Of a stretch of DNA of 48,138 nt, positions 10,325 to 11,363 are shown one piece after another. A program made the translations under genes and the position numbers. The notes below the pieces were generated by a model. That model was not told the origin of the DNA. It was given only the letters and a program-made list of their open reading frames with translations, and ran no database searches. The DNA lies in the IMG/VR virus record IMGVR_UViG_3300010885_041302, positions 1 to 48,138 of that record; one strand, written 5' to 3'. How positions within the stretch are numbered: position 1 is the first letter of the stretch; every line of letters begins with the position of its first letter. The stretch comes from a virus.

Positions 10325-10541
10325 TATTGATGTTGAAACGATTGATAAAATTTTCCAAGCTACTTTGATTCAAGATTATCGTGGACTGTTACAACAAAAA
10401 CAACAGCTTACTGAAAAACTAAACAAAGAACCACTAGCCCAATATGAACTCGAAGATCTAAATGATACTGATCATTGGATTAAAGGTATAGAGATCATGA
10501 TGGAATATTACATTGGTCATAACTGGAAAGAAAAGACTTGA
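10314..10541 (+). CDS. Small conserved-type phage protein (75 aa)
   Basis: ATG 10314 has GGAG at 10303-10306, seven bases upstream, giving MLIDIDVETIDKIFQATL. The pattern DYRGLLQQKQQL, DLNDTDHWIKGIEIMMEYY is typical of a short helical protein seen in several T4-like phages near structural or DNA genes; no function is known to me. The last codon (Thr) and the stop of this gene fall inside the TTGACT of the tmRNA promoter. Confidence 0.65.
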   Translation: MLIDIDVETIDKIFQATLIQDYRGLLQQKQQLTEKLNKEPLAQYELEDLNDTDHWIKGIEIMMEYYIGHNWKEKT

Positions 10542-10568
10542 CTAATGATCTAATATACGGTATAAATA
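10538..10568 (+). promoter_or_regulatory. tmRNA promoter with overlapping T4 late motif
   Basis: TTGACT (10538-10543), 17-bp spacer, TATAAA (10561-10566). The -10 is also the start of TATAAATA (10561-10568), the T4 late-promoter element read with gp55/gp33. The site could therefore be read early by host sigma70 and late by the phage sigma. Predicted start near 10573. Confidence 0.78.
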
Positions 10569-10572
10569 GAAT

Positions 10573-10875
10573 ATGCTGATGTTGATGACATCATGTGGAA
10601 TAGACACTGAGGACGTGGGGGCAGTACCCACCGCCTCCACCACGGATACACTGGATAAGACCGCTGAGTCGTTCTTAACTGCTAGAGCCAATTAATTTGG
10701 GGCGTCGTAAGGACGGTGTATCTTTGATGGGGGCGAAATAGGATCGACTGGTGTAATAAAGACAAGATCGAGACAATAGCATAAATAAATTATCTGCAAA
10801 CGATAATTCACTTCTTGAGATGCGCCTAGCGGCTTAATCTCTTGGGTATGAGTTCCACCTCGAAACAGAACGGGC
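10573..10875 (+). ncRNA. ssrA: Permuted two-piece tmRNA, alphaproteobacterial type
   Basis: The acceptor piece comes first. It has a T-arm GTGGG/CCCAC, then GCCTCC (10633-10638), discriminator A and encoded CCA (10640-10642). The coding piece starts with GGGGGC at 10729, which pairs with GCCTCC to form the acceptor stem. The intervening segment is closed by GATACAC (10645-10651) with GTGTATC (10716-10722). P2 is GTGGAA (10595-10600) with TTCCAC (10853-10858). The tag frame starts at GCA 10796 and reads ANDNSLLEMRLAA, then TAA at 10835-10837, inside a GAGAT/ATCTC hairpin. The LAA end is a ClpXP-type degron. tmRNA frees stalled ribosomes and tags the peptide. The mature ends are estimates. Confidence 0.9.
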
Positions 10876-10916
10876 TCACTTTATAACACACAAAACACAC
10901 ACAAAGGAGACTACAA

Positions 10917-11129
10917 ATGAGTACACCATACGATTTAAGATTTAATCTTGTTCATTTCGCAAGAGATCAACTTAACACTGAATATCAGGCTGCTCTGGAA
11001 AAGATTATATTATCATATCCAGAAGCTTCCGAAGAAAAAACAAAATTAATTTCTGCTCTTAAATATCCAACAAAATCGGATATTATTAATCTTGCTGAAG
11101 AAATTAAAAAGTTTGTCGACAATAAGTAA
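10917..11129 (+). CDS. Small conserved T4-like phage protein, SPYDLRF type (70 aa)
   Basis: The N-terminus STPYDLRFNLVHFARDQL matches a short protein widely seen in marine and other T4-like phages (PYDLRF then an ARD-L helix), of unknown function. The rest is helical and ends EEIKKFVDNK. AAAGGAG at 10902-10908 gives a strong ribosome site. It lies between the tmRNA and the tRNAs, so it may be transcribed with them. Confidence 0.75.
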   Translation: MSTPYDLRFNLVHFARDQLNTEYQAALEKIILSYPEASEEKTKLISALKYPTKSDIINLAEEIKKFVDNK

Positions 11130-11131
11130 TA

Positions 11132-11191
11132 TAATTGGTCACCTAGCGGCTTGATCGGAGTTCGGGAGGCACTTGGCAACAGAAGCCTCCC
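11132..11191 (+). repeat. tRNA-Arg 5' fragment duplication plus hairpin
   Basis: The 16 bases TAATTGGTCACCTAGC (11132-11147) recur exactly at 11201-11216, where they form the start of tRNA-Arg. After the first copy the sequence diverges and no full tRNA can be folded. It contains a 7-bp perfect hairpin, GGGAGGC (11164-11170) with GCCTCCC (11185-11191), with a 14-base loop and no T-run. This may be a decayed tRNA or a processing signal. Confidence 0.7.
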
Positions 11192-11205
11192 ACCTAATTC
11201 TAATT

Positions 11206-11281
11206 GGTCACCTAGCTCAACTGGAAGAGCAAGAGATTTCTACTCTCTAGGTTAGGGGTTCGAGTCCCTTGGTGATCGCCA
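11206..11281 (+). tRNA. tRNA-Arg (UCU)
   Basis: A 76-nt cloverleaf. The acceptor stem is GGTCACC with GGTGATC, the discriminator is G and CCA is encoded (11279-11281). The D arm is GCTC/GAGC. The anticodon stem is AGAGA/TCTCT with loop TTTCTAC, giving anticodon TCT at 11239-11241. The T arm has loop TTCGAGT. It reads AGA, the Arg codon that dominates the AT-rich late genes but is uncommon in the left early genes. Confidence 0.93.
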
Positions 11282-11287
11282 ATTTTC

Positions 11288-11363
11288 GGACTGATAGCTT
11301 AATGGTTAGAGCCATCCGCTCATAACGGATTGGTTGCAGGTTCGAGTCCTGCTCGGTCCACCA
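11288..11363 (+). tRNA. tRNA-CAU (elongator Met or Ile2)
   Basis: A 76-nt cloverleaf. The acceptor stem is GGACTGA with TCGGTCC, the discriminator is A and CCA is encoded (11361-11363). The anticodon stem is ATCCG/CGGAT with loop CTCATAA, giving CAT at 11321-11323. The paired G1-C72 rules against an initiator tRNA. The variable/T-arm boundary (TTGGTTGC) looks more like tRNA-Ile2, which would read AUA after lysidine modification, but elongator Met is not excluded. Confidence 0.9.

Follow-up and report, generated by a model that had tools for sequence, protein, structure and literature searches.

The window analysed here, a stretch of 48,138 nucleotides making up IMG/VR virus record IMGVR_UViG_3300010885_041302, is a T4-like phage contig which carries a tmRNA gene of the permuted, two-piece kind typical of alphaproteobacteria. 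Compensatory changes among related phages conserve the structure of this RNA, and a scar of recombination lies behind its gene. We consider it highly probable that the phage tmRNA, a mosaic gene with its own promoter, rescues ribosomes during infection by way of host processing, host alanyl-tRNA synthetase, host SmpB and tagging with a peptide ending in LAA.

A permuted two-piece tmRNA gene in a T4-like phage

The covariance model of alphaproteobacterial tmRNA (RF01849, gathering cut-off 50 bits) matched the window along its whole length at 10534-10880 on the plus strand, with 111.3 bits (E=1.2e-29). That of permuted tmRNA (RF04321, cut-off 47 bits) matched at 10580-10837 with 93.2 bits (E=7.6e-17). 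A first-pass annotation made from the sequence had called a phage-encoded permuted two-piece tmRNA here and proposed a search with RF01849. Both matches lie above their cut-offs and the RF01849 match is highly significant, confirming the call, as does the phage context: the contig encodes gp32, a gp59-like loader, a gp33-like coactivator, a tail tube and baseplate wedge and hub proteins. ARAGORN did not find the tmRNA in the window, reporting only a tRNA-Arg (TCT) and a tRNA-Met. The parts of the gene are as follows.

10538..10566 (+): sigma-70-like promoter, TTGACT-N17-TATAAA, read from the sequence; stops 6 nt before the acceptor piece
10573-10880 (+): whole tmRNA gene, circularly permuted, two-piece, alphaproteobacterial type
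10573..10642 (+): tmRNA acceptor piece, ending in an encoded CCA (RF01849 and RF04321 alignments, covariation)
10615-10631 (+): T arm of the acceptor piece (RF01849/RF04321 alignments)
10632-10642 (+): acceptor 3' strand CGCCTCC plus CCA (RF01849/RF04321 alignments)
10643..10728 (+): intervening spacer, 86 nt, closed by the stem GGATACAC (10644-10651) / GTGTATCT (10716-10723)
10729..10880 (+), 3' end approximate: tmRNA coding piece (RF01849, covariation)
10796..10837 (+): tag frame from resume codon GCA to TAA, ANDNSLLEMRLAA (resume region per RF01849 alignment)
10850..10877 (+): tail hairpin GAGTTC/GGGCTC around CACCTCGAAACAGAAC, in the coding piece

Coordinates and alignments agree with the earlier placement of a CCA-bearing acceptor piece upstream of the coding piece. 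The annotated span of 10573-10875 was right at its start, the 3' end lying instead near 10880. Its GGGGGC/GCCTCC pairing is also correct and lengthens to the seven pairs of the acceptor stem, GGGGGCG/CGCCTCC, with a G3-U70 wobble at the third pair. G3-U70 is the alanine identity pair. The coding piece runs from the acceptor 5' strand GGGGGCG through a D-arm-like region and strands pairing with the acceptor piece to the tag and tail. Its reading frame, GCA...GCGGCTTAA, gives (A)ANDNSLLEMRLAA with the stop codon at 10835-10837, and part of the messenger domain of RF01849 is deleted in the alignment. The tail-loop motif AACAGAA is common to many related tails and to alphaproteobacterial tails.

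Conservation and covariation among related phages

Relatives were gathered via the neighbouring gp59-like protein and a 70-aa protein encoded behind the tmRNA; the RNA was used in neither search. RF01849 matched 20 of the 27 related contigs, exceeding the cut-off in 18, and several of the others are short fragments. At least 18 related viral contigs have the tmRNA at the same genomic position. With the two pieces joined, 14 distinct phage tmRNAs gave a consensus of 28 pairs in which 97.2% of cells were paired. Changes on both sides were found at 10 pairs (33 cells), compared with 10.7 cells in shuffles (0/500). Alignment versions that were slid collapsed, leaving at most 4 double-change cells. 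As the consensus structure was derived from the same sequences, this slid control is favourable to the structure, and more weight belongs to the double changes.

The acceptor stem, including G3-U70, was invariant in all 14 phage tmRNAs, and in this set the T stem covaries, as do the helices that link the two pieces. The spacer closure proposed in the first-pass annotation, GATACAC/GTGTATC, was borne out: each of the 19 distinct spacers examined retains an uninterrupted stem of 6-9 pairs, with compensatory changes. A further proposed helix, GTGGAA (10595-10600) with TTCCAC (10853-10858), did not hold: the strands are complementary in 5 of 25 tmRNAs, all with identical local sequence, 40% of shuffled tails also contain a six-base match to the acceptor piece, and the GU of this stretch covaries instead with an AC of the coding piece (alignment columns 24-25 with 114-115). 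The covariation indicates that such phage tmRNA genes are kept under structural selection.

Sequence outside the RNA itself was also conserved. A promoter-like TTGACx, followed after 16-18 nt by a TATAAA/T-like element, precedes the acceptor piece in 20 of 25 related tmRNAs, with differing spacer sequences. The window site is missing from a generic promoter scan because that scan demands T at the last -10 position. Tags of the relatives are mostly of the form ANDN...LAA with a variable middle, one group having AKKAHNDNINYSAMKIAA. The conservation of the LAA tag and the structure across related phages fits a working gene, as had been supposed earlier from the LAA ending of the tag.

A relic of a displaced tmRNA allele

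A second RF01849 match, at 11055-11194 (33.1 bits, E=1.3e-9), lies behind the tmRNA gene in the following arrangement.

10917..11129 (+): 70-aa orphan protein, of a family adjoining phage tmRNAs (sequence search of viral contigs)
11132..11147 (+): 5' stub of a tRNA-Arg, TAATTGGTCACCTAGC, a 16-nt identity with the start and leader of the complete downstream tRNA-Arg
11148..11194 (+): tmRNA relic with the last tag codons (...LAA-TGA) and tail hairpin GGGAGGC/GCCTCCC (second RF01849 match)
11206..11281 (+): tRNA-Arg (TCT) (ARAGORN, RF00005)
11288..11363 (+): tRNA with anticodon CAT (ARAGORN, RF00005)

The relic core (11148-11194) reads GGCTTGA-TCGGAGTTCGGGAGGCACTTGGCAACAGAAGCCTCCCACC and joins the tRNA-Arg stub at the shared letters CCTAGC. 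In the related contig L077 a complete tmRNA, with the tag ANDNNAYGLRLAA-TGA, ends in this sequence, and the tRNA-Arg follows directly. Two further relatives (L003 and L005) have the same tmRNA as the window (~96% identity over 681 nt), again with the tRNA-Arg directly behind, and lack both the 70-aa gene and the relic. The block is shared at high identity by L019-L022 and by L023-L025, with differing spacers or flanks. On the simplest reading of these sequences, one exchange would have brought the tag, tail, 70-aa gene and tRNA-Arg start into a phage with an L077-like tmRNA, displacing its tag. The present tmRNA is a mosaic whose tag and tail, together with the 70-aa gene, took the place of their counterparts in an older allele, leaving a stump of it at 11148-11194.

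The relic might also be a hairpin kept for its own sake, for instance to mark where an RNA ends or is processed downstream of the 70-aa gene, a reading we regard as rather unlikely. It is favoured by a predicted folding energy of -21.7 kcal/mol for 11131-11200 and by L064 and L067, in which the 70-aa gene likewise has a second tail after it, at a different junction. The stem is moreover intact both in the window and in L023-L025 despite different sequence: GGTGGGA/TCCCACC in the latter differs from GGGAGGC/GCCTCCC by three pairs changed on both sides, while loop and flanks are identical. Both stem versions, however, occur in intact tmRNA alleles (L077 for one; L066, L068 and L069 for the other), so exchange explains the relic stems without selection on the relic. 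The L023-L025 stem may reflect a later exchange or may be kept for function. A prophage attachment site was considered and rejected in favour of allele replacement: the sequence abuts a tRNA-Arg stub and corresponds to the phage allele of L077, and a PHROG scan of 28 window proteins found no integrase. With its scar and swapped tag modules, the locus shows that these phages replace the tag-and-tail part of their tmRNA by recombination.

A separate tRNA scar was seen in L003 (2605-2720), behind the CAT-anticodon tRNA, where a 3' half lies that is identical to the end of the CAT-anticodon tRNA of the window. Its sequence suggests the same kind of allele replacement.

Homing endonucleases in related tmRNA genes

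Homing endonucleases can drive allele replacement in T4-like phages. A likeness to this was found in four relatives (L019-L022), whose tmRNA acceptor piece is interrupted just before CCA by a GIY-YIG gene (L019:1699-2250). The product matched Pfam PF19835 and PF01541 (GIY-YIG, SegE) over cut-off and a PHROG homing endonuclease family at E=3e-35. Behind the gene, a foreign second tRNA-like part restores a complete tmRNA (RF04321, 82.2 bits), which is fused to a window-type tag. The window locus differs in having the exchange scar only, without an endonuclease. In titles and abstracts of the openly accessible literature we found no report of a GIY-YIG homing endonuclease with a phage tmRNA. A reverse-strand ORF after the tail in L010 and L017 looks GIY-YIG-like by eye only, without a Pfam or PHROG match.

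A 70-aa protein adjoining phage tmRNAs

AlphaFold predicted three helices for the 70-aa protein encoded behind the tmRNA (mean pLDDT 89.6). No significant match was found in Pfam, PHROG or PDB (best PDB E 4.9), and fold relatives were uncharacterised viral proteins only; a weak Pfam EF-G-binding match (E=0.052) was taken as chance. The family is present in 68 viral contigs. Among the 50 contigs with the protein that were searched, 31 had a permuted tmRNA over cut-off and 19, many of them fragments, did not. RF00023 gave nothing over cut-off in the 22 contigs searched with it. In 19 of the 31 contigs the tag stop is followed 76-107 nt later by the start of the protein; in four the protein lies just upstream of the tmRNA (three gaps of ~10-20 nt and one of ~160 nt), and in eight it is further away. 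Most of these contigs are T4-like with gp33-gp59-gp32 neighbours, which the upstream cases do not have in the stretch read. Shared gene order thus explains much of the link between protein and tmRNA.

An obligate partnership is weakened by Roseobacter phage CRP-9, whose complete genome encodes a homologue and has no permuted tmRNA, and by the 19 contigs in which none was found. It is possible that the protein is a tmRNA partner of some kind. We think it unlikely that the family is a dedicated partner of phage tmRNA, such as an RNA-binding protein or adaptor, within a mobile cassette that exchanges tag, tail and partner with the help of homing endonucleases. The tmRNA-linked protein is nevertheless a definite candidate that can be tested as a phage partner in trans-translation.

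Proposed mode of action and alternatives

In trans-translation, tmRNA is processed by RNases, charged by alanyl-tRNA synthetase and delivered to ribosomes by SmpB, after which the nascent protein is tagged and proteolysed. What we propose here on how the RNA is transcribed, processed, charged and used for tagging, and on what the phage gains from it, is inferred from sequence and from this established biology. The gene would be transcribed from its own sigma-70-like promoter, and host tRNA-processing enzymes would excise the spacer while base pairing holds the two pieces together. Host alanyl-tRNA synthetase would recognise G3-U70 and charge the acceptor end with alanine, and host SmpB would deliver the charged RNA to stalled ribosomes. 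Translation would resume at GCA, appending (A)ANDNSLLEMRLAA, and the LAA end would direct the product to a ClpXP-type protease. Ribosome turnover could in this way be sustained during infection while transcripts are cut. A search for SmpB (PF01668), positive in 10 of 14 control genomes, found none in nine related phage records, which include several fragments as well as Melnitz and Mosig, the phage itself being represented by a 48-kb contig. Host SmpB thus probably serves the phage tmRNA.

The first-pass annotation had further suggested that proteins could receive a phage-chosen sequence. Compared with host ssrA tags, the phage tag is indeed unlike in the middle; its ANDN...LAA form is the usual one and gives no sign of a new fate. 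A tag that differs mid-sequence but keeps the degron form favours an ordinary rescue function.

A captured tmRNA could instead act as a decoy or competitor which binds host SmpB or stalled ribosomes and alters, rather than supports, host trans-translation. Phage tmRNAs do diverge more than chromosomal ones, and the TLD-only tmRNA of mycobacteriophage DS6A lends this idea a precedent, and similar molecules inhibit tmRNA (PMC4131195, PMC11915505). A decoy would however need no tag, whereas the relatives keep, along with the covarying helices, an entire tag that ends in LAA and a stop codon, and we judge this role highly improbable. Still less credence can be given to a decaying fragment of a host gene, carried passively with no function for the phage. 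Elements that integrate into ssrA commonly leave truncated tmRNA pieces there, and one tmRNA relic is present in the window at 11148-11194. Yet position, promoter, compensatory changes and tag ends of the gene are conserved in many phages, and the covariation already contradicts decay. Ribosome rescue by a phage tmRNA is the reading we prefer.

Comparison with known tmRNAs

Phage-borne two-piece tmRNA is not new, as a permuted tmRNA has been published for Methylophilales phage Melnitz along with 53 two-piece candidates in phage genomes (PMC9004378). The window adds a well-supported case to the few phages described with their own two-piece tmRNA. Less expected are the scar left by allele replacement, the small protein linked to the tmRNA and, in relatives, an endonuclease gene lying within the tmRNA gene. 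Melnitz (MZ577097.1) was the nearest isolate found. Like the window, it is T4-like and has a permuted tmRNA of alphaproteobacterial type upstream of a gp33-like coactivator, a gp59-like helicase loader and gp32; as in the other related records, no SmpB was found. DNA similarity to the window is limited to a short stretch, and no 70-aa gene is annotated between the tmRNA and the gp33-like gene of Melnitz. A glutamine riboswitch (RF01739, 52.8 bits, L060:3854-3902) lies immediately behind the Melnitz tmRNA, confirming the published report, whereas none was found in the window.

The tmRNAs of Bacillus phage G and mycobacteriophages resemble the window gene in being phage-borne; the standard one-piece form is expected for these, whereas the window gene is permuted. 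Their presence in both has been described (PMC4131195), and 79 bacteriophage tmRNA sequences have been counted (PMC11915505).

Chromosomal ssrA of alphaproteobacteria is alike in gene order, ANDN...AA tag form and tail motif. The window score of 111 bits is well below the 143-313 bits of the sampled full-length main chromosomal RF01849 matches, indicating that some of the messenger domain is reduced. Its spacer, at 86 nt, compares with 10-57 nt in 14 parsed host genes. Parsed host tags were of the ANDN type and ended in ALAA, RLAA or AVAA, and none of 385 alphaproteobacterial genomes contained the ANDNSLLEMR coding pattern. An exact tail-type match was found in one genome only, that of Nitratireductor arenosus, and does not identify the host.

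Three minor observations were made. N. arenosus (L080; G040 contig C2:31183-31497) has a second permuted tmRNA, perhaps on a mobile element, which scores 131.5 bits beside 304.5 bits for the main one. The tmRNA spacers of L121 and L126 contain a similar small basic ORF (MKKKRVGKRGR...), a possible gene inside a tmRNA intervening sequence. Near the contig start, at 50-115, the window has short direct repeats of GTCTCTGGCT.
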